From Hyphomicrobiales bacterium (GTDB taxonomy: Bacteria > Pseudomonadota > Alphaproteobacteria > Rhizobiales > JAJFHB01): DNA of 45,929 bases. Position 1 is the stretch's first letter, and every line of letters starts with the position of its first letter. Positions 4,960 to 32,901 of this stretch are shown in pieces. The position numbers and the translations under genes are program-made. Location: the NCBI GenBank assembly GCA_021775615.1, contig JAJFHL010000341.1, positions 1 through 45,929 of the forward strand. Direction: 5' to 3'. The notes below the pieces were generated by a model, which was not told the DNA's origin, did not search any database, and was given only the letters and a program-made list of their open reading frames with translations.

Positions 4960-4978
4960 TGTGCTGTCCCGGAGCCCG

Positions 4979-8843: not shown

Positions 8844-9113
8844 TGCACTTCTCCTGCAGGCTCAAGTCGGCCGGGGCCAGCGTTAGCAATTCAGCCCGGG
8901 TTCGACAACCGGAATAACCACGTATTCGCGTCGGAGGAGCACATTTAATGTGCCACCCCGATTTCGGCCGCCCGGCGGGCTGGGCGCAGATCTCACGAGC
9001 GTGTGCGCCATGCCATCGGCTGTGCCCGGTAAATAGCCCGGAACTGCATGTGTGCGAAGGAAAATTACAGGTCTGAACCGGGTTTTTCGTGGCCAGATCC
9101 TGTGTGACGCAGC

Positions 9114-15446: not shown

Positions 15447-15524
15447 TCGCTGCTTTCTGCCCTTTAAACCATTCCGCAATTGAGTGATGATGCCGCCGGT
15501 TCAACGTCAAGCGGGTGGATACAG

Positions 15525-16581: not shown

Positions 16582-17943
16582 GTGGACGTCGCTGCCGTAA
16601 AAGCCAAGCTTGCCGGCCAGGGGGTTGAGTACTTTTTTGGCGCCTATGTGGACGGCCTGGGTGTGCCCAAGTCGAAATGCGTGCCGTTGACGCATCTCGA
16701 AGATGCCCTTGAGGGCTCGGAACTCTATACGGTGGGCGCGCTGGAGGCGATGGGTCCTCTTGGCCCCAATGAGGACGAGTGCGCCGGCATCCCGGATTTC
16801 GAAACAGCCGTGGTTCTGCCGTGGGACAGGCGTTACGCGCTTGCCTTTGCCGATCTCCTGTTCAAGGGCGAACCCTACAGTCATTGCTCGCGCACGGTTC
16901 TGAGACGCCAGATCGCGGCTGCTGCCGATATGGGGTTCAAGGTGAACATGGGCGTCGAGCCCGAAGTCTACGTGCTGCGGCGCAGCGATGACGGGGAGTG
17001 GCGCCCGTTCGTCGCCGAGGACGAGTTCAATCTTCCGACCCGCGGATATGACATCGAGACGACGATGCTGGCCGACAGTTTTCTGTCGCCCATGCTCGGC
17101 CACATGAAGGAGCTCGGATGGGACGTCTATTCCTTCGACCATGAAGGCGGCGACGGCCAGTATGAGTTTGATTTCGACTATTGCGACATGCTCGGTATGT
17201 GCGATCGCATGGTGCTGTTCCGCCTGATGTCGAAACATGTGGCGCGCGAGCTTGGATGCATCGCCACCTACATGCCCAAGCCGTGGTCGAGCGCCTTCGG
17301 GTCCGGCGCGCATATGAATGTCAGCCTGGCCGACGCGGAGACAGGCAGGAACGCGTTCGATGCCGACAATGGCGGGGACGCGCGCGGCGAGCACGGTTAC
17401 ACGGAGTTGGCCTATCACTTCACTGCCGGAGTGCTGAAACACGCCGAAGCGATCATGGCCGCGGCCTGTCCGACGGTGAACTCCTACAAGCGGTTAAATC
17501 CGCGTGGACTGATGAACGAAATGTCGTGGGCGCCGGTCTACCGGGCCTATGGCCACAACAACCGGACCCTGGCCCTGCGCCTGCCGGTCAACCGCAAGTG
17601 TGTGGAGTTGAGAATTGCCGACAGCGCGACGAATTTCTACCTCTCTTCGGCGCTGATGCTGGCGGCCGGTCTTGAGGGCATTCGCGACAAGCTGGAGCCG
17701 GGCGACCCGGTCGAACTGGACACGTACTCCATGGAGGAGAGTGAGCTCTCCGAGCGCGGTATCCATCGCCTGCCGCGCACGCTTGGCCATTCGGTGGACG
17801 CGTTCGCCGCGAGCGATCTGGCCCGGGACACATTCGGTGCGGAGTTCCATGACTCTTTCGTCAAATACAAGCGAGCGGAATGGGAAGAATTCTGCCTCGT
17901 GGTCGGCGAGTGGGAAAAAGAACGCTACATGCATCTGTGGTGA
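16582..17943 (+). CDS. Type III glutamine synthetase-like gamma-glutamyl amine ligase (GlnT/GMAS-like)
   Basis: 453-residue enzyme of the glutamine synthetase superfamily, related to GlnT/gamma-glutamylmethylamide synthetase-type proteins that join glutamate to ammonia or an alkylamine with ATP. Metal and substrate blocks are visible: GVEPEVYVL (ExE), DHEGGDGQYEFDF, FGSGAHMNVSL (GSGxH), NRTLALRLPV and CVELRIADSATNFY. The GTG at 16582 has a GAGGGGA ribosome binding site. Its promoter carries the palindromic operator shared with the transporter/hydrolase operon, and DUF1116 follows 45 bp later. In this context it could recapture ammonia or the amine released by a guanidino hydrolase. Sequence alone does not separate ammonia from methylamine as substrate; N-methylglutamate-pathway genes are not in view. 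Confidence 0.88.
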   Translation: MDVAAVKAKLAGQGVEYFFGAYVDGLGVPKSKCVPLTHLEDALEGSELYTVGALEAMGPLGPNEDECAGIPDFETAVVLPWDRRYALAFADLLFKGEPYSHCSRTVLRRQIAAAADMGFKVNMGVEPEVYVLRRSDDGEWRPFVAEDEFNLPTRGYDIETTMLADSFLSPMLGHMKELGWDVYSFDHEGGDGQYEFDFDYCDMLGMCDRMVLFRLMSKHVARELGCIATYMPKPWSSAFGSGAHMNVSLADAETGRNAFDADNGGDARGEHGYTELAYHFTAGVLKHAEAIMAAACPTVNSYKRLNPRGLMNEMSWAPVYRAYGHNNRTLALRLPVNRKCVELRIADSATNFYLSSALMLAAGLEGIRDKLEPGDPVELDTYSMEESELSERGIHRLPRTLGHSVDAFAASDLARDTFGAEFHDSFVKYKRAEWEEFCLVVGEWEKERYMHLW

Positions 17944-17988: not shown

Positions 17989-19236
17989 ATGTCCGCAAGT
18001 GCCCGCGATCAGGCGAATGATGAAGCCTTCAAACGCCTGAACGACGGTGCGCCGGTGCTGACCGGTGTCAAGCCGGCCGGCGAGGTCTTGCCGGGCATGA
18101 CGCCCAACATGGTCATCACGTCGGGATGGCCGATGCCGTGGGAGCAGTATTCCGGCGGCCAGCGGCGGTCGCTCGTCTACGGCGCGATGTATGAGGGGCT
18201 GGCGGACAGCGAGGAAGATGCGGAGGACAAGTTCGCGTCCGGTGAAATCGTGGTCGGGGCGTGTCACGATCACGGTTGCGTTGGATCCGTGGCCGGCATC
18301 TACACCGCGTCCATGCCGGTGTTCGTTGTCGAGAACACGGCCTTCGGCAACACCGGTTACTGCAATTTCTATGAGGGCGGTTCGCCGCGGCGCCTCAATT
18401 ACGGCGTCTATGACGACGAGGTGCGCGACCAGCTCATCTTCATCGAAAAGGTTATCGCCCCGGTGATCGCGGCGGTTGTGGAGAGGTCGGGCGGCATTCC
18501 GCTCAAGCCACTGATGCAGCGGGCGGTGCATATGGGCGACGAGCTGCACAGCCGCAACACGGCCGGAACGATCCTGTTCCACCGCGAACTCGTGCCCCAT
18601 CTCATGGCGCTCTACGGCGACGATCCCAAAGCGGTATCCGAGACCGACCGGTTTCTGAAAGAGAACGAGTACTTCTTTCTGAGACTGTCGATGGCATCCG
18701 CCAAGTGCATGGCGGACGCGGCCCGTGACATCGAGCAATCCAGCATGATGACGGCCATGACCATCAGCTGCAACGGCTTTGCCATCCGGGTCAGCGGGCT
18801 CGGCGATGAATGGTTCACAGGGCCGCCGCCGGTGGTCGAGGCGCAGTTGTTCGAAGGCTACACCGAGGACGACATTCACTGGATCGGCGGCGAAAGCCAC
18901 ATCACCGAGACAGTCGGTCTCGGCGGCTTCGCCCAGGCGGCGGCGTTTTCGCTGCAGCGGTACCAGGGCGGCTCGGCGCAGGCCATGGCGGACACGAACC
19001 TGAAGATGTACGAGATCACGCTGGGCGAGAATTCAACGTTCCAGATACCGTTCCTGGGCTATCGCGGAACGCCGACCGGCGTCGACATTTTCAAGGTCCT
19101 GGAAACCGGCATTACACCGGCGATCGATGCCGGCGTGGCGGGCAGGGATGGCGGACAGATCGGCGCGGGAACCCTGCGCGCACCAATCGAGTGTTTCGAG
19201 GCGGCGGCCGCTGCATACGAAAAGCGCTACGGTTAA
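17989..19236 (+). CDS. DUF1116 protein (AllG/YlbE family, oxamate carbamoyltransferase-like)
   Basis: 415-residue protein of DUF1116. The diagnostic segment is MQRAVHMGDELHSRNTAGT, where most relatives have GDExHxRN; other marks are GNTGYCNFYEGGSPRRLNYG and ISCNGFAIRVSG. In enterobacteria the DUF1116 protein AllG/YlbE forms oxamate carbamoyltransferase together with AllF (FdrA) and AllH, producing carbamoyl phosphate from a carbamoylated substrate. Here neither FdrA nor a DUF2877 protein is nearby, so it stands alone. The ATG at 17989 has a GAGGAGAAG ribosome binding site. It follows the GlnT-like gene in one operon under the palindromic operator. A carbamoyl-transfer step in urea or guanidine nitrogen use is plausible, not shown. 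Confidence 0.82.
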   Translation: MSASARDQANDEAFKRLNDGAPVLTGVKPAGEVLPGMTPNMVITSGWPMPWEQYSGGQRRSLVYGAMYEGLADSEEDAEDKFASGEIVVGACHDHGCVGSVAGIYTASMPVFVVENTAFGNTGYCNFYEGGSPRRLNYGVYDDEVRDQLIFIEKVIAPVIAAVVERSGGIPLKPLMQRAVHMGDELHSRNTAGTILFHRELVPHLMALYGDDPKAVSETDRFLKENEYFFLRLSMASAKCMADAARDIEQSSMMTAMTISCNGFAIRVSGLGDEWFTGPPPVVEAQLFEGYTEDDIHWIGGESHITETVGLGGFAQAAAFSLQRYQGGSAQAMADTNLKMYEITLGENSTFQIPFLGYRGTPTGVDIFKVLETGITPAIDAGVAGRDGGQIGAGTLRAPIECFEAAAAAYEKRYG

Positions 19237-19260: not shown

Positions 19261-19941
19261 TCAGGCCTCGCCAAGCTCACCGAGGATTTCGTCCAGCGAG
19301 ATTACCCGGGCATAGCCCCGCCGCAGGGTCTTGAGCTCGGCGTCATGGACTTCCTGATTGTCCGTGGCGTTGAGATCGCTTCCGAATATGACCTTGTAGT
19401 CGCGGAAGAAGGCGTCGCGGGCCGTTGCGCCACAGCAATAGTTGGTCATGCAGCCCGTGATGATGACCGTGTCCACGTCGCAGCCGCGCAGGTAGGTGTG
19501 GAGATCTGTGTCGAAGAACGCGCTGTAGCGATGCTTCTGAATGACTTTCTCTCCCGGCATCGGCGCGATCTCGTGATAGGTCGGGGTATCTGCGGCGCCG
19601 ATGCGCAACGCGCCCTCCTTGATCGGTAGGTTCAGGGGAACGTCCCACATCAGGCCCTTGTCGCGTCCGGTCTCGTCATGGGCGTGTTCGGTGAAGATGA
19701 CCGGGACACCGAGTTCGCGGCAGCGCGCCAGCAGCGTCTTTACCCGCGGCATGATCCGGAGATTGCCCGGTGTCCACATGCGTGCGCCGGTCGCAACGAA
19801 CCCTTCCTGCAGATCGATCACCAGAAGTGCCGTCTTGCGGTGGTCTATGGGAAAATCGGGATTTGAGGTTTCGTACTGCCGCGCGGCGCGTTCGAGAATT
19901 TCCGGTTCGCCCGCAAACGTATCGTCTTCATTTTTCGACAT
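19261..19941 (-). CDS. Isochorismatase-like cysteine hydrolase
   Basis: 226-residue cytoplasmic hydrolase of the isochorismatase-like superfamily. The Asp-Lys-Cys triad is visible: Asp43 (LLVIDLQEGF), Lys136 (VIQKHRYSAF) and Cys169 (CMTNYCC). The family includes N-carbamoylsarcosine amidase, biuret hydrolase, ureidoacrylate hydrolase and guanylurea hydrolase, all cleaving carbamoyl or guanyl C-N bonds, which suits the surrounding genes. The ATG at 19941 is preceded by GGGAGCAGGGA. It is transcribed toward the DUF1116 gene (24 bp apart) and diverges from the DUF1989 gene, with a degenerate copy of the palindromic operator between. Exact substrate not assignable. Confidence 0.88.
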   Translation of the reverse strand: MSKNEDDTFAGEPEILERAARQYETSNPDFPIDHRKTALLVIDLQEGFVATGARMWTPGNLRIMPRVKTLLARCRELGVPVIFTEHAHDETGRDKGLMWDVPLNLPIKEGALRIGAADTPTYHEIAPMPGEKVIQKHRYSAFFDTDLHTYLRGCDVDTVIITGCMTNYCCGATARDAFFRDYKVIFGSDLNATDNQEVHDAELKTLRRGYARVISLDEILGELGEA

Positions 19942-20011
19942 CGATCCCTGCTCCCATCGTCACGTTCTTGCCGCAGATCCGCTTGTCGGCGGTTGGTCCA
20001 TGATAGTGCTT

Positions 20012-20029
20012 CTGGACAAGGTTTGCAGT
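20012..20029. promoter_or_regulatory. Degenerate third copy of the island operator
   Basis: CTGGACAAGGTTTGCAGT matches the 18-bp operator at 12 of 18 positions, including the central run GACAAGGTT. It sits in the gap between the divergent isochorismatase and DUF1989 genes. The right arm is poorly kept and I see no good -10 beside it, so binding is uncertain. Confidence 0.35.
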
Positions 20030-20092
20030 TCTGTATGAAAATCGCAGCCGAAAGGGCCTAAGTTTCATTGCATTTTTGAGGGAGATGCCATC

Positions 20093-20686
20093 ATGAGCGA
20101 TCCGCGCGACGTGGTCATTCCGGCCAAATCCGGGGCGGCCATCCATGTGCGAAAGGGCGAAACACTGCGGGTCATCGATGTCGAGGGGCACCAGGTTGCC
20201 GACTTCGTCTGCTTCGGCGAGCATGACCATGCCTCGTTCCTTTCCGCCGGCAAGACCCGGATGAACGCATTCAAGGTGAGGATCTCAACCGGTGACTTTT
20301 TGTTCTCGAACCGGAACGAAGTGATGTTCACCATCACCAAGGACACGGTCGGGGCGCACGATCTGCTTTTTCCGCCCTGCAACCGCTGGCTTTACGAGAA
20401 CGTGTTCGACCAACCCGGCAAGACCGGGTGCCTTGAGATCCTGAGCGGTGTGCTGGCCCGATACGGTATCGAGGAGGGTGCCGTGCCGGATCCGTTCAAC
20501 CTCTTTATGAAGACCCATGTGGAGCCGGACAACGAACTGGTGATCGATCTGCCCGACTCGGGTCCTGGTGATCATATTGAGCTTACCGCCGCAATGGATT
20601 GCCTTGTGGCTGTGACGGCCTGCCCGGAGGAAGGCAGTCAATGCAATGGTGGACGCAGCACGGCGATTGAATTGCAGATGGTGTGA
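20093..20686 (+). CDS. DUF1989 family protein (urea carboxylase-associated/carboxyguanidine deiminase-like)
   Basis: 197-residue DUF1989 protein. Conserved blocks are GHQVADFVCF near the N-terminus, VGAHDLLFPPCNRWLYE (probable metal-binding His and Cys), ILSGVLARYGI, DPFNLFMKT, and LTAAMDCLVAVTACPEE followed by CNGGRSTAIEL. Two DUF1989 paralogues form carboxyguanidine deiminase (CgdAB) in the guanidine carboxylase pathway, and others accompany urea carboxylase. Here there is only one and no carboxylase or allophanate hydrolase in view. The ATG at 20093 has a GAGGGAGATG-type ribosome binding site. It is divergent from the isochorismatase gene. A role in guanidine or urea nitrogen use is a contextual inference. 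Confidence 0.85.
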   Translation: MSDPRDVVIPAKSGAAIHVRKGETLRVIDVEGHQVADFVCFGEHDHASFLSAGKTRMNAFKVRISTGDFLFSNRNEVMFTITKDTVGAHDLLFPPCNRWLYENVFDQPGKTGCLEILSGVLARYGIEEGAVPDPFNLFMKTHVEPDNELVIDLPDSGPGDHIELTAAMDCLVAVTACPEEGSQCNGGRSTAIELQMV

Positions 20687-20956: not shown

Positions 20957-22048
20957 ATGACTGGCTTGCGTGGAAAATCAACTTGGCGTCCGTCGCGCAG
21001 AACTGTCCTGAAAGGGGCCGCGGTGACCGCGGCTGCAACCGTCATCGCCCCGCGCGTCGGTCTTGCGGCCGAAGAGCTGAACATTCTCGTCTGGTGCGAT
21101 CATGCCGACGAGAAGTTGATCAAGCCGTTTGAAGCGGCGCACAACGTCAAGGTCAACGTAAAGACATATGAAGGGACAGGCACCGCTCTGTCTCTCGTCG
21201 AACAATCAAAACCCGGCGACTGGGATGTGTTCGTCATCGATGCGCCGGATGTGCCGCGGGTCGCAGGTTCCGGCCTGCTGATGGAACTTCCCGAGGACAT
21301 CGCGCCGTGGGGCGACATGTTCGAGGCGATCAAGAATTCTCCGTTCACCCGCGTCGATGGCAAGCTCTACGCGGCGCCCGAGAAATTCGGCTATTACGGT
21401 TTCTGCTACAACAAGAACAAGATCGATGAAGCCGATGCCAAGCGCGGCGATCTTCCGTGGAACTCAAAGTACAAGGGCCAGCTCGCGGTCTACGACTATT
21501 ATTTCCCGATTATCCAGATGGTCGGCATATCACTTGGCTGGAAGCCGAATGAGATCGATGAAGGCAAGCTGGAAGAGATCCGCAAGCGTCTCCTGGAAGC
21601 CAAGCCCAACATCAAGCTGATCGGCGATATCGTCAGTGTTCAGAACGCCCTGGCGACAGGCAACGCGGATGCGATCGTCGGTGGTGCGGAATATGCGGTT
21701 TCGGGCCTGATGGGCGACAATCCTCATCTCGACTGGACGATATCCGACCAGGGCGGGCTGATCTGGACGCAGGGCCTGGCGGTGTTCAACGATTCCAAGC
21801 GCAAGGATCTGGCGCAGGCCTTCGTCAAGCATGTGCTGAGCCCCAAGGGCCAGGCATCGCTCGCCACATCGGAATGCTACTGGGCCATGCCGACGAACAG
21901 CAAGGCTGAGTTGGACGACGCGACCAAGAAGACGTTGCGCTGGGACCAACAGGGCGATTTCCTCTCGCGGTCGGTCTATTCGCAACTGCCTGCTGGCGAT
22001 CTCGACGCGGCAATGCTCGACGTGTGGACGGAGTTCCTGCAGAGCTGA
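20957..22048 (+). CDS. Periplasmic substrate-binding protein of a PotD-type ABC importer, Tat signal
   Basis: 363-residue extracytoplasmic solute-binding protein of the spermidine/putrescine-like group. The signal carries a twin-arginine motif, SRRTVLK (13-19), and a hydrophobic run ending near GLAAEE. Mature landmarks are LNILVWCDHADEKLIKPFE, DVFVIDAPDVPRV, YAAPEKFGYYGFCYNK and the YWAMPTNSKAEL segment near the C-terminus. The ATG at 20957 has an AAGGGAGGAA ribosome binding site. First gene of the operon that also encodes HypB, HypA and the ureohydrolase pair, so it probably delivers a cationic guanidino compound rather than a polyamine (inference from context). Regulated by the upstream palindrome and possibly by the leader. 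Confidence 0.93.
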   Translation: MTGLRGKSTWRPSRRTVLKGAAVTAAATVIAPRVGLAAEELNILVWCDHADEKLIKPFEAAHNVKVNVKTYEGTGTALSLVEQSKPGDWDVFVIDAPDVPRVAGSGLLMELPEDIAPWGDMFEAIKNSPFTRVDGKLYAAPEKFGYYGFCYNKNKIDEADAKRGDLPWNSKYKGQLAVYDYYFPIIQMVGISLGWKPNEIDEGKLEEIRKRLLEAKPNIKLIGDIVSVQNALATGNADAIVGGAEYAVSGLMGDNPHLDWTISDQGGLIWTQGLAVFNDSKRKDLAQAFVKHVLSPKGQASLATSECYWAMPTNSKAELDDATKKTLRWDQQGDFLSRSVYSQLPAGDLDAAMLDVWTEFLQS

Positions 22049-22146
22049 GTGATATGCCGGCTTTGCCCACGGGCGGAGCCGGCCGTCCACCCAAGGTTTG
22101 AGCATCAGGCTCGTTCCAGGAGTGGAATGAGAGGGGGAGAGTGTGT

Positions 22147-23052
22147 GTGACAGCTGAGACGGCCAGAGCCGATGATGCGCGCGGAGGGCCCGCCTGGGCG
22201 GGCGGCGGTGAGAGCCGCGTTCACCTGGCAAAGTGGATCGTCTGGCCGCCAGTGCTCTTCACTGTGCTCTTTTTCGTCGCACCGCTGGTGGTGATGGCGT
22301 GCGTCAGCTTCTGGACACGCAAACAAGGTGTGCTTATTCCCGAATGGACGCTCGTCAACTACGAGAAGTTCTTTTCCAAAGGCTACCTTAGAGCGGCACT
22401 CTTCAACTCGTTCGAGGTGACGCTTCTGACCACGATGGTGAGTGTTCTGCTTGCCTATCCATTGGCCTATGTCCTGGCGTTCAAGGTCCCGGTGCGCTGG
22501 CAGCGATTGCTTCTGCTCTTCGCGGTGTTGCCGTTCTGGACGTCTTATGTGGTGCGGTCCTACAGCTGGCTGCTGGTCATTTCCGATCACGGCATCCTCA
22601 ACGACGCCTTGATCGGGGCGGGCGTCATGTCGGACCCGATACAGATTGCATACTCCCGCACCGCGACCGTCCTGGGGTTCGTGCATTTCTTCACGATGCT
22701 CCTGACGCTGACGATCTATTCCAATCTTATCCAGATCAACCCGTCGCATCTGAAGGCCGCGCGGGATCTCGGTGCATCGCCCGCCAAGGTTCTGTGGCAT
22801 GTGACCTTGCCCCTGTCTTTGCCCGGTGTCGTTGTCGGTGCGTTTCTCACCTTCGTGATCACGATAGGCGACTACATCACGCCACAGATCCTTGGGGGAA
22901 ACACCGAGGTGCTGATGCCGCAGGCGATCATCCTGCAGATCTCGCGTACCGCAAACCTGCCGATGGCGTCGATGATGGCCATATTGCTGATGACCTGCGT
23001 GCTGATCGTCTACTTCTCCATCCAGCGCTACCTCAAGATGGACCGGCTGTGA
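22147..23052 (+). CDS. ABC importer permease (PotB-type)
   Basis: 301-residue inner-membrane permease with about six helices. The cytoplasmic EAA loop, which docks the ATPase, is visible as AARDLGASPAKVLWHVTLPLSLPG. An N-terminal polar region of about 25 residues precedes the first helix (VLFTVLFFVAPLVVMACVSF). I start at the GTG at 22147, which has GGGGGAG with a 7-nt spacer; the GTG at 22141 abuts the ribosome binding site too closely. It is 98 bp after the binding-protein stop and 90 bp before permease 2. It forms half of the membrane channel. Confidence 0.92.
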   Translation: MTAETARADDARGGPAWAGGGESRVHLAKWIVWPPVLFTVLFFVAPLVVMACVSFWTRKQGVLIPEWTLVNYEKFFSKGYLRAALFNSFEVTLLTTMVSVLLAYPLAYVLAFKVPVRWQRLLLLFAVLPFWTSYVVRSYSWLLVISDHGILNDALIGAGVMSDPIQIAYSRTATVLGFVHFFTMLLTLTIYSNLIQINPSHLKAARDLGASPAKVLWHVTLPLSLPGVVVGAFLTFVITIGDYITPQILGGNTEVLMPQAIILQISRTANLPMASMMAILLMTCVLIVYFSIQRYLKMDRL

Positions 23053-23142: not shown

Positions 23143-23937
23143 ATGTGGGCTAGATGGCGCAGTCAGCTCCCCGTCGGCATCTACCTGTTGGTGATGCTCA
23201 CCTTCATCTATCTGCCGGTGATCATTCTTGTCCTGTTCTCGTTCCAGCACGGTGTTCTCCCGGTGCCGCCGTTCGAGGGGCCGAGCCTTGAATGGTATCG
23301 CAAGGCGTTCTCCAACGACCGGTTGATGGACGCATTGCTGAATTCGGTGATCATCGCGCTGTCGTCATCATTTGGAGCGACCATACTGGGCTTTTTTGCG
23401 GCCTATGGCATGTTCAAGCACACCCCGGTCGGGGCCAGCGCCGTTCGGTTCATTCTGATGGCGCCGATGACCGTGTCCTACCTGATCATCGGTCTTGGAC
23501 TGCTCATCGTTTTCAACTTCGCCGGTATCGGCAAATCGCTTTTGTCCGTCGGCATCGCCCATTGCGTGATCAACCTGCCGATCTGCTATGCGATCATCTA
23601 TTCGCAGTTCGGCGGACACCTGCGCAACATCGACAACGCGGCGCATGATCTCGGCGCCAGCGACATCCAGACGATGATCTATGTGATCATCCCGGTGATG
23701 GCGCCGCCAATGCTCGCCGCGTTCCTGATTTCGGCGACGCTGTCTTGGGACGAGTTCATCATTGCCTTCCTGCTCTCGAGTTTCGACGTCACATTGCCGG
23801 TGATGATTTTCGAGATGCTGCGCGCCGGCCTGACGCCTGAAGTCAATGCCGCCGGCACCATCGTGTTCGCAATATCGGTCGGCCTTGCCTTCTTTGCAGC
23901 CGTTGCGATCCTATTGCGGCCGGAGCGCAAGTCATGA
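23143..23937 (+). CDS. ABC importer permease (PotC-type)
   Basis: 264-residue second permease with six helices and the EAA loop NAAHDLGASDIQTMIYVIIPVMAPP. The start region IYLLVMLTFIYLPVIILVLFSF and the segment SWDEFIIAFLLSSFDVTLPVMIFEMLR (PotC-like) are characteristic. The ATG at 23143 follows GGAGGGGGTGAGAA. Its stop overlaps the ATPase start (ATGA at 23934), indicating translational coupling. It pairs with the upstream permease to form the importer pore. Confidence 0.92.
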   Translation: MWARWRSQLPVGIYLLVMLTFIYLPVIILVLFSFQHGVLPVPPFEGPSLEWYRKAFSNDRLMDALLNSVIIALSSSFGATILGFFAAYGMFKHTPVGASAVRFILMAPMTVSYLIIGLGLLIVFNFAGIGKSLLSVGIAHCVINLPICYAIIYSQFGGHLRNIDNAAHDLGASDIQTMIYVIIPVMAPPMLAAFLISATLSWDEFIIAFLLSSFDVTLPVMIFEMLRAGLTPEVNAAGTIVFAISVGLAFFAAVAILLRPERKS

Positions 23938-25019
23938 CCGCGCCGGTGGTCGAATTGCGTGGCGTGGCGAAAGAGTATGGCGCCGTGGTCGCGGTCGATG
24001 ACATCTCGCTCGAGGTGCAGAAAGGTGAATTCGTCGTCCTGCTTGGGCCCTCGGGAAGCGGCAAGACGACGCTGCTTTCGATGCTTGGCGGATTCACACC
24101 GCCGACCCGCGGGCAGATCCTGATCGAAGGCCGCGATGTGACCGGGAAGGCACCTGCTCAGCGTCCGACAGTCACGGTGTTCCAGGACTATGCTCTGTTT
24201 CCGCACATGACCGTGCGCGACAATGTGGCGTTCGGTCTGGCCATGCGCCGCGTGCCGAAGCCGCAAAGACACGAGCTGGCATATGCCGCAATCACACAGG
24301 TCGGGCTGTCAGACTTCTCCGACCGGCGCATTCATCAGCTTTCCGGCGGTCAGCGCCAGCGTGTTGCGCTGGCGCGCGCCATCGTCATCGAGCCCGCCGT
24401 GCTTTTGCTCGACGAGCCGCTTGGCGCGCTGGATGTCAAAATCCGCCGCCAGATGCAGCATGAACTGCACAGCTTGCAACGCGATCTCCATGCCACGTTC
24501 ATCCATGTCACCCACGACCAGGAAGAGGCGATGAGCCTGGCTGACAGGATCGTTCTGCTCAATGAGGGGCGTATCGAGGACGCCGGCCCGCCGGAGCGCA
24601 TCTACCGCGAGCCGGCCACGGTCTTTGCGGCAACCTTCATGGGCGACACCAACATCGTACGCGGCACGGTCTCGAAGGCCGGAGGCGGTCGTGTTGCGGT
24701 GGAAACGGCAGTCGGCACGCTCGACTGCAAAGGGAGCGGCGAGGCCGGCGAGGCGGTTTGTCTGTCGCTTCGCCCAGAAGCAATCCGCTGCGGCAAGGCA
24801 AACGGCCCCGACAGCGTTCCCTTGGGAACCGGGCGTCTCGGCGACTTCGTGTTCCAGGGCACGTTTCGCCGCTGTCATGCGGTGGCGGGGCCGGATGCGT
24901 CGGTCAGGCTGCAGATGCGTCTGCCGCCGGAGATTGAAATCGAGCCTGAAGCGCAGACGCCGATCTGGATAAGGTCGTCAGACATAGTCGTATTGAAGGA
25001 GGGGCAAAATGACCGTTGA
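23934..25019 (+). CDS. ABC importer ATPase (PotA-type), first of two
   Basis: 361-residue ATPase with Walker A GPSGSGKTT, Q-loop FQDYALFPH, signature LSGGQRQRVALARA, Walker B VLLLDEPLGALD and switch His in THDQEEAM. A C-terminal TOBE-type regulatory domain follows. It overlaps permease 2 by 4 bp (ATGA) and the TetR gene by 11 bp, so all three are coupled. It energises import by the binding protein and two permeases. A second, clearly related ATPase is encoded at 29205. Confidence 0.95.
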   Translation: MTAPVVELRGVAKEYGAVVAVDDISLEVQKGEFVVLLGPSGSGKTTLLSMLGGFTPPTRGQILIEGRDVTGKAPAQRPTVTVFQDYALFPHMTVRDNVAFGLAMRRVPKPQRHELAYAAITQVGLSDFSDRRIHQLSGGQRQRVALARAIVIEPAVLLLDEPLGALDVKIRRQMQHELHSLQRDLHATFIHVTHDQEEAMSLADRIVLLNEGRIEDAGPPERIYREPATVFAATFMGDTNIVRGTVSKAGGGRVAVETAVGTLDCKGSGEAGEAVCLSLRPEAIRCGKANGPDSVPLGTGRLGDFVFQGTFRRCHAVAGPDASVRLQMRLPPEIEIEPEAQTPIWIRSSDIVVLKEGQNDR

Positions 25020-25677
25020 TCACGCCGCGTTGGCCGAAGGTACGGCAGGGGCCGTACAGCAGGCGAAGGCAGGATTGCAGAAGCACAAGGGCGTGCGTTC
25101 GGAGATCGTTCTCGAGGCGGCTCTGGAGCTCTTTTCACGCGAAGAGTACAAGGCGGTCACCGTGCAGCGGATTGCCCGCAGCATCGGCATTACGCACTCG
25201 CTGATCTACTACTACTACAGAAACAAGGAGAACCTGTTTCACTCCGCTCTGGTGCATGCCCTGGACCGGGTGATGGAGGACATCTACCGAATCAAGGCCA
25301 CACACCGCGAGCCGGTCGACCTGATGCGGGCGTATTTTCAAATGAACATCGAACAGGCCGAGGCGCTCAAGCGATTTGTCCGCATCATGTTCGTGAATGC
25401 GCATTCGAACACCACATCATCGCCTGAAATTGTCAGTGAGATCATCAGCGACTTTTACGCCCTCGAAGTGGGCATTCTGGTTGAATCCATTCGCGAAGGC
25501 GTTTCCCAGGGCGTGTTCACCTGTGAGTGGCCGGACACTGCGGCCCGTTTCGTGTCGAAATGCCTCGACGGGATCTATTATGGAGCACTGGTCCGCAAGG
25601 ATACGGACCTCGCGCAGGCCATGCGCGAACTGGAAGACGTCACCTGGACGTTGCTGAACTACAAAAAGGAACAGTAG
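25009..25677 (+). CDS. TetR/AcrR-family regulator, probable repressor of the island
   Basis: 222-residue regulator with an N-terminal TetR helix-turn-helix: EIVLEAALELFSREEYKAVT, then RIARSIGITHSLIYYYYRNKENLF. A helical ligand-binding domain follows. An unusual 25-residue lead (TVDHAALAEGTAGAVQQAK) precedes the HTH. The ATG at 25009 lies inside the ATPase gene's end (11-bp overlap) and follows GGAGGGGCAAA. Being inside the operon it controls suggests autoregulation. The palindromes at 16511 and 20733 are the expected operators; the inducer is probably the imported guanidino compound or a product of it (inference). Confidence 0.9.
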   Translation: MTVDHAALAEGTAGAVQQAKAGLQKHKGVRSEIVLEAALELFSREEYKAVTVQRIARSIGITHSLIYYYYRNKENLFHSALVHALDRVMEDIYRIKATHREPVDLMRAYFQMNIEQAEALKRFVRIMFVNAHSNTTSSPEIVSEIISDFYALEVGILVESIREGVSQGVFTCEWPDTAARFVSKCLDGIYYGALVRKDTDLAQAMRELEDVTWTLLNYKKEQ

Positions 25678-25721: not shown

Positions 25722-26663
25722 ATGTGTAAGGTCTGCGGCTGCAGTGACGGAGAAGTCCGTATCGAGGGTGCCATACATGGGCACTCGCATGATCATGGCC
25801 ACGATCACAATCATGACCATGACCATGATCATGAAACCCATGTTCATGATCATCAAAACGGGGACATTCACTTTGGACAGGGCCCGGCGGGAACCCATGT
25901 GGGCGGTGTAAGCCAGTCGCATCTGCTGCAGATCGAGGAGAACATTCTTTCGAAGAATGACGGCTTCGCCCAGACCAACAGGGACAGGCTGGCAGAATTG
26001 GGCGTGGTGGCCCTCAATCTCGTGTCGAGCCCGGGCGCGGGTAAGACGACACTTCTTGTTGAAACCCTGAACCGGCTTAAGCAGGACTTTCCGGTACGGG
26101 TTATCGAGGGAGACCAGGAAAGCGCCAACGATGCCGAGCGGATCCGCGCAACAGGCGTTCCGGCGATCCAGATCAACACCGGCCGCGGCTGTCACCTTGA
26201 CGCCCATATGATCGGTCATGCCATGGAGCAGCTCGATCTCGAGCGAAACAGCATCCTGTTCATCGAGAATATCGGCAACCTTGTCTGCCCGGCCGGATTT
26301 GATCTCGGCGAGGCGTCGAAGGTGGTCATCCTGTCGGTCACCGAGGGCGACGACAAGCCGATCAAGTACCCGGACGCATTTGCCGCCGCCGACCTCATGG
26401 TGATCTCCAAGACCGATCTCCTGCCGCATGTGGATTTCGATGTGGCGGCCTGCATCGAGCACGCCCGGTGCATCAATCCCGACATCGGCACCATCGAGCT
26501 GTCCGCCAAGTCAGGCGCGGGCATGGATGAGTGGACCGCATGGGTGGCGGCGCGCCAGCGCGACGCGCTCGAGGCCGAACGGCGGAGCCTGGAAGCGAGG
26601 CTGGCCGAGATCGCATCGGTGCTCGATGATGATGAGGCGACGGGGACACAGCAGCATGCATGA
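25722..26663 (+). CDS. HypB-like nickel-delivery GTPase
   Basis: 313-residue SIMIBI-class GTPase of the HypB family, which inserts nickel into enzymes with GTP hydrolysis. The N-terminal nickel site CKVCGC is at residues 2-7, with the usual MC start. A His/Asp-rich store at residues 19-50 carries 14 His. The P-loop is SSPGAGKTT (102-110). A Cys-His metal site is in GRGCHLDAH, the ENIGNLVCPAGFDLGE switch is present, and SKTDLLP gives base specificity. The ATG at 25722 has GGAGG upstream. No hydrogenase or urease gene is in the window. It is followed directly by HypA and the ureohydrolase pair, so it is probably a dedicated nickel chaperone, as for the HypB-like helper of guanidine hydrolase GdmH. 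Confidence 0.94.
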   Translation: MCKVCGCSDGEVRIEGAIHGHSHDHGHDHNHDHDHDHETHVHDHQNGDIHFGQGPAGTHVGGVSQSHLLQIEENILSKNDGFAQTNRDRLAELGVVALNLVSSPGAGKTTLLVETLNRLKQDFPVRVIEGDQESANDAERIRATGVPAIQINTGRGCHLDAHMIGHAMEQLDLERNSILFIENIGNLVCPAGFDLGEASKVVILSVTEGDDKPIKYPDAFAAADLMVISKTDLLPHVDFDVAACIEHARCINPDIGTIELSAKSGAGMDEWTAWVAARQRDALEAERRSLEARLAEIASVLDDDEATGTQQHA

Positions 26664-27060
26664 GCTGACGATCGCCAATTCCCTGGTGGAGCTCGCCAGC
26701 GCCCACGCCGCCGACAACAATGCGCTGAGGGTCAAAGCCATCTGCGTCCGCATGGGCGTTTTGTGCGGCATTGGCCGCTCTCTCTATTTCTGTTTCGAGC
26801 CGGCCTCGCGCGGCACGCTTTGCGAAGGCGCGAAATTGCGCATCGAAGAAGTGCCGCTGAGCGTTCGGTGCGAGCATTGCGACGACGTGAAGGTGCCGAA
26901 GGCGCTTTACAACTTCAGATGTCCAGATTGCGGGTATCCGACCTCCAAGGTGGTGAGTGGGCGCGAGATGGAACTGGTCTCGATTGAACTTGAAACAGCG
27001 GAACGTGCGGCGTCGATGCAGGAATGCCCGAATGCCGGGGAGGCGAGGAACGCAATATGA
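26656..27060 (+). CDS. HypA-like nickel metallochaperone
   Basis: 134-residue HypA-family protein. The N-terminal MHE (residues 1-3) is the nickel-binding motif. Four zinc Cys are present as two CxxC pairs: Cys72/75 (RCEHC) and Cys89/92 (FRCPDC). Hydrogenase HypA proteins are usually about 113-118 residues; this one has a roughly 20-residue C-terminal extension containing another Cys (MQECPNAGE). The ATG at 26656 overlaps the HypB stop by 8 bp. Its own stop overlaps the start of ureohydrolase A as ATGA (27057-27060), so chaperone and target are translationally coupled. Delivers nickel with HypB, most likely to the ureohydrolase. Confidence 0.93.
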   Translation: MHELTIANSLVELASAHAADNNALRVKAICVRMGVLCGIGRSLYFCFEPASRGTLCEGAKLRIEEVPLSVRCEHCDDVKVPKALYNFRCPDCGYPTSKVVSGREMELVSIELETAERAASMQECPNAGEARNAI

Positions 27061-28124
27061 ATTCGGAACATGAGACGATCTGGAAGTTTGTGCCGCATCA
27101 GCATCGCGGCCCCGCCGAGCAGTTCGGCGAGGACGATCACATCTATTCGCCCAAACTTCATAACAGTGCCTTCAAGTCGCGCGGTCTTGCGACCTTCATG
27201 GGGGCGCCCTACTGCCCGCCGGATCGCGATGCCATCCGCCAAATGGGCGCCAAGGTGTGTTTCCTGGGCGTGCCCTGGGACCAGGGTCAGATCGTGCGGG
27301 CCGGCACATCGCAGGGCGCCTCTGGCCTGCGCGAGGCGACAACGCAGTACTTCTCGTACATGTTCGAATATGACGTCGACATCCTGACCTTCTTCAACGT
27401 GGTCGATTGCGGCGATGTGCCGACGGTGCCGGGCAACAACGAGAAGTCGCACGAGTATATCTGCAACTACGTGACGGAGTGCCTCGAAGGCGGGGCCAAG
27501 GTCATCATGTGCGGCGGCGACCATTCGCTGCCGATCCCCGGCTCGCGCGCCCTGTCGCGCTTCACCGGAGACGGCAAGATGGGCTATCTGCATGTGGACA
27601 GCCATCTCGACGCCGCTCCGGACTGGGCCGGCAATGCCATCACAAACTGCTCCGGCCCGCCACGGGCCCTCGAACTGCCGAATGTCTCGGCTGAGAACAT
27701 GGCGCATCTCGGTTCACGCAACAGCCTCAACCCGAAGGACTGGTACGACTTCTTCGTCGATAACGAGATTCCGGTCGTCACCATGCACCAGATCGTCGAG
27801 CGCGGGCTTGACGCCTGTGCGCGGGACGTGTTCGAGCGCTGCAAGGATGGCGCCGATACGCTGTACTTCTCATGGGACACAGACAGCATCGACATTGCCT
27901 GCATGCCCGGATCGACCTCGCCGGAGTGCTACGGATTGAAGGGGCGCGAGGCCATTCAGTTCGCCCGCATCGCAGGTGAATATGGCTGCGATGTTCTCGA
28001 GGTTGTCGAGCTCGCCCCCTATTTCGACGTCAGTCAGATGAGCATCAAGATGGCTGCCAACATGATCTACCACTACCTGGGCAGCCGGGCGAAGACCCTG
28101 CGCGACCAGGGCCTGGAACCATAA
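27057..28124 (+). CDS. Ureohydrolase subunit A (catalytic), probable Ni-dependent guanidino hydrolase
   Basis: 355-residue arginase-superfamily protein with a full dinuclear metal site: His156 (CGGDHS), Asp181, His183 and Asp185 (VDSHLD, where agmatinases have DAHxD), Asp274 and Asp276 (SWDTDSID). The late acid Glu318 is in VVELAPYFD. It is longer than ordinary agmatinases (about 305-320) because of a roughly 65-residue N-terminal extension before AKVCFLGVPWDQG, a trait shared with GdmH-like guanidine hydrolases. It overlaps HypA by 4 bp and is followed 31 bp later by a second ureohydrolase. Family knowledge: GdmH and metformin hydrolase are nickel enzymes needing HypA/B-like helpers. Inferred reaction: guanidino compound plus water to urea plus amine or ammonia. 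The substrate is not readable from sequence. Confidence 0.9.
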   Translation: MNSEHETIWKFVPHQHRGPAEQFGEDDHIYSPKLHNSAFKSRGLATFMGAPYCPPDRDAIRQMGAKVCFLGVPWDQGQIVRAGTSQGASGLREATTQYFSYMFEYDVDILTFFNVVDCGDVPTVPGNNEKSHEYICNYVTECLEGGAKVIMCGGDHSLPIPGSRALSRFTGDGKMGYLHVDSHLDAAPDWAGNAITNCSGPPRALELPNVSAENMAHLGSRNSLNPKDWYDFFVDNEIPVVTMHQIVERGLDACARDVFERCKDGADTLYFSWDTDSIDIACMPGSTSPECYGLKGREAIQFARIAGEYGCDVLEVVELAPYFDVSQMSIKMAANMIYHYLGSRAKTLRDQGLEP

Positions 28125-28155
28125 TCAAAGACGCGCGGACGAAGGAAAAAGACCA

Positions 28156-29193
28156 ATGAACCCAGCCAAAGCCTATGCTCACCTGTTCTCGCCTCTCGGC
28201 GGCGATGCGGGCGACAATTACCGCGCCCCCGGGGTGCTCACGTTCCTGCGGGCGCCGCATGTCGGGCTCAAAGCGGCGGACCTGAAGGAAAGCGGCGCGC
28301 AGTACGCCTTTCTCGGCGTGCCCTTCGACGAGGGCAATGTCGGCAAGCCCGGCTCGGAGGACGGTCCGCGCGAGTTTCGGCTCGCGACCCAGGAGTACTT
28401 TCCATACTGGTTCGAATACGACGTCGATCTGAACGGCACATCGGTCGATTGCGGCGACGTATCGATGCCGAAGGTCAGCCCCGACGTTGCCCGCGACCGC
28501 ATCTACAAGGCGGTGCGCGAGGTGCTGTCCGCCGGGCTCGTGCCGATCATCTGCGGCGGCGACCGTTCGATCTCGATCGCAGCGACCAAGGCGCTTTCCG
28601 ACCATATCGGCGAGGCCAAGATGGGGTACCTGCATTTCGGTGCCCATCTCGACATGGCAGACAGCTGGGCCGGCGAGAAAAACCTCTCGACATGCGCCCT
28701 GGCGCGCATCTCCGAGCTGCCCAACCTTTCGGCGGACAACATCGCTCATATCGGCGCCCGCAATTCCATGAACCCGAAGGATTACATCGATCTCGCCAAG
28801 GAACGGAATATCCGGTTCCATTCGATGTTCGAGTTCCTTGATCGCGGCATGAACGAGGTCGCGGGCGAGGCGCTGGACCGGGTCTGGAATGGCACGGACG
28901 CGCAGTATGTGAGCTTCAACTTCAATGTGATGGACGCCTCCGCGGCGCCTGGCGTCACGGCGACCGAGCCCGGCGGCATCGAGGCGCGGGAAATCATGCA
29001 TATCGCCGAAATGATCGCCAAGCGAGGCCAGGTGAGCGTGCTTGACGTGACTGAGCTGTGTCCGGTGTTCGATGTTTCAGGAACCGCGGCGCGCCTTGCC
29101 GTCTGTGTGATCATGCGCATCATGGCCGCACTGGCGAAGGAGCGTGGCGATACCATCGACACGAGTATCCGGCGTGCGGATCTCATGGGCTGA
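28156..29193 (+). CDS. Ureohydrolase subunit B, metal ligands lost (pseudoenzyme partner)
   Basis: 345-residue arginase-superfamily protein, collinear with subunit A. Shared segments include YFPYWFEYDVD against YFSYMFEYDVD, SVDCGDV against VVDCGDV, and IAHIGARNSMNPKDY against MAHLGSRNSLNPKDW. Four of six metal ligands are replaced: His to Arg137 (CGGDRS), Asp to Gly162 (FGAHLD), and both Asp of DxD to Asn255 and Asn257 (SFNFNVMD). His164 and Asp166 remain. Loss at exactly these sites with the fold kept intact argues for a structural subunit, not decay. The known parallel is metformin hydrolase, a heteromer of one active and one inactive ureohydrolase. The ATG at 28156 has GAAGGAAAAAG upstream. 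Confidence 0.9.
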   Translation: MNPAKAYAHLFSPLGGDAGDNYRAPGVLTFLRAPHVGLKAADLKESGAQYAFLGVPFDEGNVGKPGSEDGPREFRLATQEYFPYWFEYDVDLNGTSVDCGDVSMPKVSPDVARDRIYKAVREVLSAGLVPIICGGDRSISIAATKALSDHIGEAKMGYLHFGAHLDMADSWAGEKNLSTCALARISELPNLSADNIAHIGARNSMNPKDYIDLAKERNIRFHSMFEFLDRGMNEVAGEALDRVWNGTDAQYVSFNFNVMDASAAPGVTATEPGGIEAREIMHIAEMIAKRGQVSVLDVTELCPVFDVSGTAARLAVCVIMRIMAALAKERGDTIDTSIRRADLMG

Positions 29194-29204
29194 CGGTACC
29201 GATC

Positions 29205-30314
29205 GTGAGCGAACCATCGGTCATTGTCGAAAACGTCCTGCACAGGTTTGGATCGTTCACCGCGCTTGACCGTGTTTCTCTTGAAATCGAGAAGGGGGAA
29301 TTCGTTGTCCTTCTGGGGCCGTCGGGCAGCGGCAAGACCACCTTGCTCTCGATCCTCGGAGGTTTCATTGAACCAAGCGAGGGCAGGGTGCTGATCGAAG
29401 GTCGCGACATGACGGCGGTGCCGGCGGCGGCGCGGCCGACAATCACGGTGTTTCAGGACTACGCGCTGTTTCCGCACAAGTCGGTCAGCGACAATGTCGG
29501 CTTCGGCCTCGACATGCGGAAGGTGCCGCGCCGCAAACGCGACGCAAGGATCGCTGAAATGCTCGACATGGTCGGGCTTGGCGATGCCGGATCGCGCAAG
29601 CCCCATGAACTGTCGGGTGGACAGCGCCAGCGCATTGCCCTGGCGCGTGCGCTTGCGGTCGAGCCCTCGGTTCTGTTGCTGGACGAGCCGCTTGGCGCGC
29701 TGGACCTCAAGCTGCGGCGGCAGATGCAAGATGAACTCAAGGAGATACAAAGACGGATCGGAACGACGTTCATCCATGTGACGCACGACCAGGAGGAGGC
29801 AATGGCGATTGCCGACAAGGTGGTGGTGATGGATCATGGAAAAATTGAGGACAAGGGTGTTCCCGAGCGGGTCTATCTGCGGCCACGCAGTGTTTTTGCC
29901 GCAACGTTCATGGGCGATACCAACCTGATCGAGGCACAGGTGACGGCATGCGGGGACGATTCTGTTTCGGTGACGTGCGATCTTGGCGATTTTGATCTGC
30001 CCTTCGATGCGTCGGTTTCGAAGGTGCCGCCGGCAGGTGAAGCGGTCATCCTGTCGGTCAGGCCCGAACACCTGACGATCGAGCGGTCGGGGAGCGATGA
30101 CATCTCGTTTGGCGACGTTCGTGTCGACGAGGTCGGATTCGTCGGCACCCATCATCAGTGCTGGACGGTGCACGAGGTCGTGCCGTCATTCACACCGCTG
30201 GTTCATCTCCTGGATGGTGAGGAACTGGCCGTCGACGCAGCCACGCCATTATTCGCGAGCCCCCGGAACATTCTGGTGTTCCGGGCCGGCGGGCATGACG
30301 GTAAGAAGGGATGA
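29205..30314 (+). CDS. Second PotA-type ABC ATPase
   Basis: 369-residue ATPase with Walker A GPSGSGKTT, Q-loop FQDYALFPH, signature LSGGQRQRIALARA, Walker B VLLLDEPLGALD and a C-terminal TOBE-type domain. I start at the GTG at 29205 (VSEPSVIVENV), 11 bp after the subunit B stop; no good ribosome binding site is visible, so coupling is likely. No extra permeases accompany it. It is alignable with the ATPase at 23934 over most of its length, suggesting that both serve the same permease pair as a heterodimer, or that it serves permeases elsewhere. The C-terminal regulatory parts differ most. Confidence 0.9.
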   Translation: MSEPSVIVENVLHRFGSFTALDRVSLEIEKGEFVVLLGPSGSGKTTLLSILGGFIEPSEGRVLIEGRDMTAVPAAARPTITVFQDYALFPHKSVSDNVGFGLDMRKVPRRKRDARIAEMLDMVGLGDAGSRKPHELSGGQRQRIALARALAVEPSVLLLDEPLGALDLKLRRQMQDELKEIQRRIGTTFIHVTHDQEEAMAIADKVVVMDHGKIEDKGVPERVYLRPRSVFAATFMGDTNLIEAQVTACGDDSVSVTCDLGDFDLPFDASVSKVPPAGEAVILSVRPEHLTIERSGSDDISFGDVRVDEVGFVGTHHQCWTVHEVVPSFTPLVHLLDGEELAVDAATPLFASPRNILVFRAGGHDGKKG

Positions 30315-30981: not shown

Positions 30982-32901
30982 GTGAGCGTCGAAGACAAGA
31001 CACAATTGGATCCGATAGAGCGGCTCAATCAGCTTGAGCGCCGGGGGGCCTATTTCGAGGCGGCCGACCTGGCGTCGCGGTTGCTTGAACACTTCGACCC
31101 GGACCATCTGGCGGAGCTTGAAGCGAAGTCGAACGTCGGGTCCGGAGCGGTGCAGTCCGATGTCGCCGATGCGGCGGAAGCCGCCGTACTGCTTGAGGAG
31201 CTCTATACGGTCAGCTTTCTGCACGTGCTTGTGGTCGCCCGTAGCGGGGCGATCGAAAACGCCACCGAACTTTACAAGAAATACGGCGTCGCGAACCGCG
31301 CCAACGAAGACGCCCAGAGCCTTGGCGCCCGCCTGATCAAGGATCGGGCCTTCGAGGTGAGCGGAGATGCGCGCACCGAGTTGCTGCGCGAGGCGGCCAA
31401 TGCCTATGCCGCGGTCTATGATCGCTTCGGTGGAAGCTTCCCCGCCGTGAACGCCGCCACACTCAACCTGCTTGCGGGCGAGGAAGCAAAAGCGGGCGAA
31501 TACGCCAAGAGGACGCTCGATGCCTGCGCCAAGGAAACCCCGGACACAAGCCGTCGCAAATACTATCGCGACGCATCGATCGCCGAAGCGCTTCTTGCCA
31601 GCGGTGACGTGGAGGCGGCTGAGACGGCGTTGAAAAAAGCCGGCAGCCGCAAGGATGTCGACTTCGGCGCGCGGGCAACGACGGCCAAACAGTTGCGGCT
31701 GGTGTGTGCCGCGCGCGGCGTCGACACCGCCATCCTCAGGCATATTGCCGTGCCCGAGGTGCTTTACTATGCCGGCCACATCATCGCGCCGCCGGACTGT
31801 GAAGGCCGGTTTCGGGCCGAGCAGGAAGCACACATTCGCGGCGAGATAGAGCGCTACCTGGATGCTCACAGGCCCAGCATCGCCTATGGATCGCTGGCGG
31901 CGGGCGCCGACATCCTGTTTGCGGAGGCCTGCATCGAACGCGGCATCGAGATGCACGCCATTCTGCCATTCAATCTGGATGACTTCGTTGAGCAGTCGGT
32001 TGCGCCGTCGGGGGGAGACTGGAAGGCGCGCTTCGATCGCTGCCTTGAGCACTTCAAGAACAGTCCCGGCGGGCTGCAGCAGATGATGACCTATGCCACC
32101 GACGGCAAGTTCCTGCGCGATGAGAGCCTTTACATGTACGGCGCTCAACTGGCCATGGGGCTGGCCCTGCTGCGCGCCAGTGTGCTCGGCACGGGCATGC
32201 GAATGGTTGTCGTCTATGACGGCAAGGGTGGCACCGGTGTCGGCACCGACGGCAGTATCGCCATGTGGGAGGAGCTTGGACTGCCCTACGATGTCATCGA
32301 CTGCCCGCAAAGCACCGGCCCGCGTCAGCAGACCCGTGCGGCGCCGCCACAGGACGACCGACGGACCCGTTTCCCGCGCGCCATCATCTTCGGCGACGTC
32401 GTTGGGTTTTCAAAACTGCAAGAGGAGGACGTTCCGCGGTTCCACGACATCTTCATGGCGCGCATTTCCAGGGAGCTCAAGAGTTTCGGCGAGCGTGTGC
32501 TCTACAGAAACAGCTGGGGCGATGCGATCTATGTGGTGTTCGACAACGCGGTCGACGCGGCGCGTTTCTCGCTGTCCATTCAGAAGATCATCGACGAGAT
32601 GGACTTTGTGCCGATCGGCTATGACCGTGCCCTGAGGCTGAGGCTCGGTGCGCATTTCGGCCCGATCTATCATGGCGTGGATCAGCTCTGCGAGGTCGAA
32701 ACATACTACGGATCCCACGTCACGCGGGCGGCGCGCATCGAGCCGGTCACCCCGGCAGGCAAGGTCTATGTGACGGAATCGATGGCCGCGGCGCTTGCGC
32801 TTTCCGGCGTGGACGACATCGACGGCGACTATGTGGGCCCGGTGCCTCTGGCCAAGGACTACGGCGAGATGCGCATGTACCAGCTTCGCGAAAAGGGCTG
32901 A
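30982..32901 (+). CDS. Helical-repeat protein with C-terminal class III adenylate/guanylate cyclase domain
   Basis: 639 residues. The first 250 are helical and TPR-like (paired AEAL/AAETALKKA helices). Residues about 255-380 form a Rossmann-like segment with IAYGSLAAGADILFAEACIERG, reminiscent of SLOG/LOG nucleotide-binding domains. Residues about 460-639 form a class III cyclase domain. One metal Asp is Asp472 (IIFGDVVGFS) and the second Asp514 (NSWGDAIYVVF). The usual transition-state Asn is Thr (GSHVTRAARIE, normally VNxAAR), while its Arg is kept. Start GTG at 30982. No membrane segments, so cytoplasmic and probably sensing a soluble ligand. Whether it makes cAMP, makes another cyclic nucleotide or is inactive cannot be said. 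Confidence 0.8.
   Translation: MSVEDKTQLDPIERLNQLERRGAYFEAADLASRLLEHFDPDHLAELEAKSNVGSGAVQSDVADAAEAAVLLEELYTVSFLHVLVVARSGAIENATELYKKYGVANRANEDAQSLGARLIKDRAFEVSGDARTELLREAANAYAAVYDRFGGSFPAVNAATLNLLAGEEAKAGEYAKRTLDACAKETPDTSRRKYYRDASIAEALLASGDVEAAETALKKAGSRKDVDFGARATTAKQLRLVCAARGVDTAILRHIAVPEVLYYAGHIIAPPDCEGRFRAEQEAHIRGEIERYLDAHRPSIAYGSLAAGADILFAEACIERGIEMHAILPFNLDDFVEQSVAPSGGDWKARFDRCLEHFKNSPGGLQQMMTYATDGKFLRDESLYMYGAQLAMGLALLRASVLGTGMRMVVVYDGKGGTGVGTDGSIAMWEELGLPYDVIDCPQSTGPRQQTRAAPPQDDRRTRFPRAIIFGDVVGFSKLQEEDVPRFHDIFMARISRELKSFGERVLYRNSWGDAIYVVFDNAVDAARFSLSIQKIIDEMDFVPIGYDRALRLRLGAHFGPIYHGVDQLCEVETYYGSHVTRAARIEPVTPAGKVYVTESMAAALALSGVDDIDGDYVGPVPLAKDYGEMRMYQLREKG

Follow-up and report, generated by a model that had tools for sequence, protein, structure and literature searches.

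The four-gene locus and its nickel helpers

The stretch of DNA analysed here, 45,929 nucleotides from a Hyphomicrobiales genome (contig JAJFHL010000341.1; hereafter the window), carries a four-gene locus in which hypB, hypA and two arginase-family genes, whose products we call alpha and beta, follow one another on the + strand (Table 1; coordinates of window features are positions in the window). The reading frames confirm this order, as the initial annotation had described it, with hypA and hypB directly upstream of the alpha-beta pair. Overlaps of 8 and 4 base pairs (bp) had been proposed to couple the genes, and these were found between hypB and hypA and between hypA and alpha, respectively, whereas alpha and beta do not overlap and are instead separated by a 31-bp gap. 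Alternative starts are open at 25716 (GTG) for HypB and at 27024 (ATG) for alpha, the latter yielding 366 amino acids (aa). Comparison with a contig of the same genus (L009, 92% identical in alpha) gave ratios of nonsynonymous to synonymous change (dN/dS) of 0.098 for HypB, 0.153 for HypA, 0.048 for alpha and 0.038 for beta, values that are rough because dS is about 1 or more and hence near saturation.

The two accessory proteins have the hallmarks ascribed to them. HypB begins with MCKVCGC and contains 14 His within residues 1-50, so that both the intact CxxCGC site and the His store are seen, and HypA combines its MHE start with four Cys arranged as CxxC pairs at 72/75 and 89/92. Their scores against the corresponding NCBIfam equivalog models are 286.6 bits for HypB (TIGR00073, cut-off 121.2) and 97.1 bits for HypA (TIGR00100, cut-off 88.1). 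A pattern-based scan of contigs from one genome per species, which picks up close relatives only, yielded 32 database loci with an alpha 61-92% identical to that of the window, and HypA lies near alpha in 30 of them (all neighbourhood counts refer to matches within 9 kb of alpha), L017 and L029 being the two without it. In the literature, 56 alpha-beta pairs are described, most of those within the clades of the metformin hydrolase MetCaCb having nickel-chaperone genes nearby, and the chaperones are dispensable for activity in vitro and required for growth on metformin (PMC11271267).

Table 1. Features of the locus and of its surroundings in the window.
Feature	Position	Strand	Basis
HypB nickel GTPase, 313 aa	25722-26663	+	N-terminal CxxCGC and His-rich stretch; TIGR00073 above cut-off
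HypA nickel metallochaperone	26656-27060	+	MHE start, two Cys pairs, TIGR00100 above cut-off; sole PF01155 (HypA) match in the whole genome
Alpha, predicted catalytic subunit of a heteromeric ureohydrolase (DmgH type), 355 aa	27057-28124	+	Six metal ligands; PDB matches, residues, tree
Beta, degenerate subunit, 345 aa	28156-29193	+	Four of six metal ligands replaced; match to MefH beta 8RYI_C
TetR-type regulator, directly upstream of hypB	25009-25677	+	Pfam TetR_N; tree
Substrate-binding protein of polyamine-type importer, twin-arginine translocation (Tat) signal	20957-22048	+	SBP_bac_8 and TAT_signal above cut-off
ABC permease, PotB-like	22141-23052	+	BPD_transp_1; below PotB model cut-off
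ABC permease, PotC-like	23143-23937	+	BPD_transp_1; below PotC model cut-off
ABC ATPase, PotA-like	23934-25019	+	ABC_tran; below PotA model cut-off
Second PotA-like ABC ATPase, directly after beta	29205-30314	+	ABC_tran
Glutamine-synthetase-like ligase	16582-17943	+	Nearest solved relative glutamate-methylamine ligase 9QUR, E 2.7e-90
AllG-type protein, found near several such clusters	17989-19236	+	PF06545
Agmatinase	15480-16493		Above TIGR01230 cut-off

Relatives and key residues of the two subunits

Both alpha and beta match the Pfam Arginase family (PF00491). The NCBIfam models listed for the two proteins all score below cut-off, the agmatinase model TIGR01230 (cut-off 174.3) giving 120.5 bits for alpha and 125.9 for beta. 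In a comparison with solved structures, alpha was matched to metformin hydrolase alpha subunits (8X3G, 8RYI and 8SNF, with E values of 3.1e-201 or less), and beta to the beta subunit of the metformin hydrolase MefH (8RYI_C, E 1.7e-177). Identity to the alpha at locus L012 of Aminobacter niigataensis DSM 7050 is 81% across residues 9-355 of the window's alpha (78.9% when 355 aligned columns are counted). From the strain name, we take L012 to be the experimentally tested dimethylguanidine hydrolase (DmgH) pair; beta is 73% identical to the beta subunit of that strain. The DmgH of A. niigataensis DSM 7050, described in 2024, is nickel-dependent and converts dimethylguanidine, not metformin, to dimethylamine and urea; only heteromers are concluded to be active, and specificity is determined mainly by alpha (PMC11399263).

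All six metal ligands are kept in alpha (H158, D183, H185, D187, D276 and D278), whereas beta has R, G, H, D, N and N at these positions, four of which are replacements (R, G, N, N); degenerate betas are described as carrying 3 to 5 ligand changes (PMC11271267). A six-ligand alpha, a degenerate beta and adjoining HypA and HypB are thus shared with the metformin hydrolases known as MefH, MetCaCb and MfmAB (PMC11399263, PMC11271267, PMC11647477). The pocket residues of alpha are Q80, W192, N199, S288, T289, S290 and E320, and beta keeps the substrate-cap residues Y22 and F82 (roles as given in PMC11271267). These observations bear out the proposal that the locus probably encodes a heteromeric, nickel-dependent guanidino hydrolase of the same class as metformin hydrolase, in which a catalytic subunit is paired with a degenerate one.

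Metformin itself was considered as the substrate, given that the pair belongs to the same family and that alpha is 77.5% identical to the metformin hydrolase of Pseudomonas mendocina. However, at all four specificity positions mutated in PMC11399263 the window differs from MefH, carrying the DmgH residues Ser184 and Ser288-Thr289-Ser290 in place of Cys184 and Asn288-Ser289-Ala290, and on these pocket residues metformin was rejected. Moreover, homologues at 93.8% and 71.2% identity are about 20,000-fold weaker on metformin, and a third at 61.7% has no detected activity (PMC11271267), which further argues that a metformin hydrolase is very improbable here. Ser184 and Ser288-Thr289-Ser290 help to tell DmgH from MefH and would not by themselves prove the substrate. 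L012 and the P. mendocina MefH differ in 24 columns of alpha; of these, the window has the DmgH residue at 14, the MefH residue at 3 and neither at 7.

The scores also bear on a reading of the pair as a guanidine hydrolase like GdmH, which is a single-gene enzyme, or as an ordinary manganese agmatinase. The Pfam Arginase domain would fit either, and GdmH is likewise nickel-dependent with its own nickel chaperones (cited in PMC11271267), so that the arginase family, dedicated chaperones and, as predicted here, nickel would be common to both systems. Against this, two PDB sequences named agmatinase 2, presumably GdmH or its kin, score only 165 and 153 bits with alpha, compared with 676 bits for MefH alpha, the similarity to GdmH being much lower provided that these entries do represent it. 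Together with the agmatinase models below cut-off and the tree described below, in which the pair is set apart from the other ureohydrolases included, this makes such an enzyme the least probable of the readings considered.

Pocket patterns and phylogeny of the relatives

Aligning the alpha of the window with 34 relatives, namely the 32 database loci, the P. mendocina plasmid (L041) and a second pair from the window's own genome (L044), revealed distinct residue patterns at positions 80 and 288-290. Gln80 with Ser-Thr-Ser (STS) occurs in 8 of the 35 rows (the window, five Aminobacter rows, L009 and L015), Gln80 with Thr-Thr-Ala (TTA) in another 8 and Thr80 with Thr-Ser-Cys (TSC) in 15; Asn80 with Thr-Thr-Tyr (TTY; L038) and Gln80 with Asn-Ser-Ala (NSA; MefH) are found once each, and 2 rows are cut short. 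At position 184, the STS rows have Ser or Ala, and every other row has Cys. We regard these patterns as a prediction of specificity rather than a demonstration, because in the experiments that moved DmgH towards metformin position 184 was mutated together with 288-290 (PMC11399263), and the pocket residues tested for metformin were different ones, for example 199, 289 and 320 (PMC11271267).

A tree of 73 rows (IQ-TREE), in which the other ureohydrolases are seven proteins from six loci plus the agmatinase of the window, and from which the rows L039 and L040, shortened by contig ends, were left out, separates alphas and betas into two clades. The alpha of the window groups with L009 (support 98/93), then with the Aminobacter and MefH rows (8 rows, 99/96) and then with L015 (99/99); its beta falls with the Aminobacter, P. 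mendocina, L009 and L015 rows (nine rows) at 100/97. The pair therefore lies inside the DmgH/MefH clade, and alpha is not placed inside ordinary agmatinases, the position that the initial annotation had named as telling against its proposal; the depth of the root is unsure because the outgroup branches are very long. The TSC rows and L038 form one clade (100/100 for alpha), whereas the TTA rows are scattered in three places, with L016 and L037 nearest the STS rows at 81/74. As TTA is not a single clade, it may simply be the older state.

A beta was found in 29 of the 32 alpha loci; L039 and L040 end inside alpha, and L029 has none within 5 kb. At L029, no match to beta or to the Hyp proteins lies within about 5 kb of the lone alpha (4733-5800), and a full cluster lies elsewhere in the same genome (L021).

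The second pair of the window's own genome (L044, C64; 10681-13570 and 7041-8753) lies beside the one urease alpha match that the genome contains. It is 68% and 71% identical to the window pair, has the TTA pattern with Cys184, and has an NMT1-type binding protein nearby. Since no HypA or HypB match lies near L044, HypB and HypA of the window may serve both pairs. Three other genomes likewise hold two alphas, with TTA and TSC patterns in OFTM97 and jk18x7bins.3 and two TTA alphas in KW1-S11_145.

A predicted dimethylguanidine hydrolase

Taken together, the sequence, the residues, the tree and the neighbourhood suggest, with a probability that we put at roughly 0.8, that the four genes encode a DmgH-type dimethylguanidine hydrolase, an orthologue of an already known kind. 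The initial annotation had suggested that the substrate may be new; a likely new substrate is not supported: the nearest tested relative, at 81% identity in alpha, hydrolyses N,N-dimethylguanidine, and the known specificity residues are of the same type. The window shares with the A. niigataensis DmgH locus (PMC11399263) the gene order tetR-hypB-hypA-alpha-beta and the named alpha pocket residues.

In the mechanism that we propose, HypB and HypA would load nickel into alpha, and alpha and beta would assemble into an alpha2-beta4 hexamer, as in metformin hydrolase. Alpha would carry a two-nickel site, while beta, having lost its own, would cap the alpha pocket through its N-terminal loop. N,N-dimethylguanidine, probably brought in by the polyamine-type importer upstream, would be hydrolysed to dimethylamine and urea, the urea passing to the urease, whose genes lie at another site in the genome, and the amine to methylamine assimilation, with the cluster probably regulated by the TetR protein.

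Several points weigh against this assignment. DmgH and MefH are 93% identical yet have almost completely different substrates (PMC11399263), so a change of substrate is possible at 79-81% identity. The seven alpha columns matching neither enzyme are accompanied by a less decided beta, in which the discriminating columns follow DmgH at 8, MefH at 6 and neither at 10, and the close relative L009 carries Ala184 instead of Ser184. N,N-dimethylguanidine is stated not to have been identified in biological systems (PMC11399263), and its source is described as having remained elusive (PMC12508155). Finally, what becomes of dimethylamine is left unexplained, because the genome has no match to PF11927, the one dimethylamine demethylase family tested, which we take to be the dimethylamine demethylase/monooxygenase family (DmmA).

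In an alternative reading, an enzyme of this kind would act on a different N-substituted guanidine, such as a cyclic one or one with longer dialkyl groups, that is the natural substrate in this bacterial family. The second pair in the same genome differs in its pocket (TTA, Cys184), two of the three other genomes with two alphas hold differing patterns, a natural source of dimethylguanidine has remained elusive (PMC12508155), and the binding protein of the window groups with those of six TSC-class rows (98/94) in an unrooted tree containing only proteins found beside alpha. Nevertheless, the four tested specificity positions carry DmgH residues; a Hyphomicrobium homologue only 70% identical to DmgH alpha still hydrolyses dimethylguanidine (PMC11399263); and the two TTA alphas of KW1-S11_145 illustrate that two copies need not mean two substrates. 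We therefore consider a different guanidine unlikely, and the DmgH-type dimethylguanidine hydrolase is retained as the preferred reading.

Importer, regulator and neighbouring genes

Compared with the DmgH locus, the window alone has an ATP-binding cassette (ABC) importer of the polyamine type upstream and a second ABC ATPase after beta. The solved relatives of the binding protein are PotD-like at a low score (63 bits at best). Of the 32 database loci, precisely the 15 with the TSC pattern have a polyamine-type binding protein near alpha, as does the window pair; its absence is well tested in only eight of the 17 other loci (L010-L013, L015, L017, L027 and L036, with at least 5 kb on both sides). 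In the tree of TetR proteins, also unrooted and limited to proteins found beside alpha, the window falls on the same side as the regulators of Aminobacter and P. mendocina (100/98), on a long branch of its own. In the same-genus genome G114, the end of the ligase, AllG, the importer and the start of tetR are found on L106 and the rest of tetR through beta on L009, two contigs that would be contiguous.

The initial annotation had viewed the importer and regulator as dedicated to the enzyme. Both an ABC importer and a TetR protein do recur near such pairs; the exclusive tie is weakened by a control search, in which 42 of 397 genomes of the order have a relative of the binding protein at E 1e-50 or less. 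Four of these also contain alpha and head the ranking (63-100% identity). The remaining 38, whose best binding-protein matches are 46-53% identical (43% for one second match), have no alpha match at 1e-60, at most five candidates per genome being scored among the matches listed. Neighbourhoods were inspected in 14 binding-protein genomes (G114 and 13 others). In each of the 13 alpha-less genomes, a binding protein lies together with two permeases and an ATPase, and HypB, HypA, alpha and beta of the window are nowhere the best query at 1e-12, only the best query being shown for each place. For 10 of the 13 ATPases of these alpha-less importers, the second ATPase of the window is a better match than the first. 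In three of the 13 (L099, L100 and L103), a protein 79-80% identical to the agmatinase of the window adjoins the binding protein, and in L097 an agmatinase relative (46% identical) lies a few kb away. Because importer relatives thus occur without alpha-beta, three of them beside an agmatinase, the importer is a probable partner of the pair and not an exclusive one, and it may also serve the agmatinase of the window.

In the portions of the main texts consulted, neither a link to an ABC importer nor the pocket patterns are described, and the metformin importer reported is an NCS1 protein (PMC13390362). The pocket patterns, the second pair beside urease and the importer near the 15 TSC pairs and the window pair are thus observations beyond this literature. 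The Aminobacter loci and the annotated P. mendocina plasmid have genes in common at the places of a cytosine permease and a HupE/UreJ gene. No riboswitch was found in the window, there being no Rfam match at gathering scores.

Further upstream, the glutamine-synthetase-like ligase is a lead as a candidate user of the amine product. An AllG-type protein is found near alpha-beta clusters in distant bacteria (the window, L106, L018, L044 and L021), accompanied by a glutamine-synthetase-like ligase in four of these five places (as the ligase end only in L106, and about 14 kb apart in L044). Between AllG and the importer (19261-20686), the window encodes an isochorismatase-type hydrolase and a DUF1989 protein, which were not found at the corresponding place in the same-genus contig L106. 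After the cluster, a protein with TPR-S and guanylate-cyclase domains is encoded at 30982-32901, and three neighbouring frames on the - strand (6569-9905) share, by eye, a GDSLA motif near their start.

Genomic setting and distribution

The genome (6.26 Mb, 96.65% complete) contains 23 arginase-family matches, the three of the window included, which is many for one genome, and no match to the NiFe-hydrogenase large subunit. On contig C174, genes resembling the N-methylglutamate route of methylamine use were recognised by eye only. The order is represented by 397 genomes, 5 of which have alpha at E 1e-60 or less; at the same threshold it is present in 4 of 4 genomes of the family and, among 385 of the class, in the genome itself only. 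These genome sets overlap, and in the order and class searches at most five candidates per genome were scored among the matches listed.

Possible diversity of heteromeric ureohydrolases

In contrast to a view of the heteromeric nickel ureohydrolases as one enzyme from which a metformin branch recently arose, a wider reading would see them as a family of specificities. Enzymes with different pocket patterns (STS, TTA and TSC, with Gln80 or Thr80), and those of the TSC clade in particular, would differ in the N-substituted guanidine that they hydrolyse, two versions would be kept in some genomes, and a polyamine-type ABC importer would supply the substrate. If this were true, the enzyme of the window or the second pair would have a natural substrate that is not yet named. 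We hold this view tentatively and think it rather doubtful, as it is weakened by TTA not forming one clade, by the two TTA alphas of KW1-S11_145 and by identity levels: the Hyphomicrobium enzyme is 70% identical to DmgH alpha and the TTA alpha of L016 is 69.9% identical to L012. If the Hyphomicrobium enzyme is of the TTA type, STS and TTA would have the same substrate, leaving TSC alone as a candidate for a new one.

Overall, DmgH-type pairs occur in all four genomes of the family, with two versions in the genome studied here, alongside a urease and the importer, which makes the natural role and source of dimethylguanidine a testable question. The more interesting question is whether the relatives, above all those of the TSC clade, differ in substrate.

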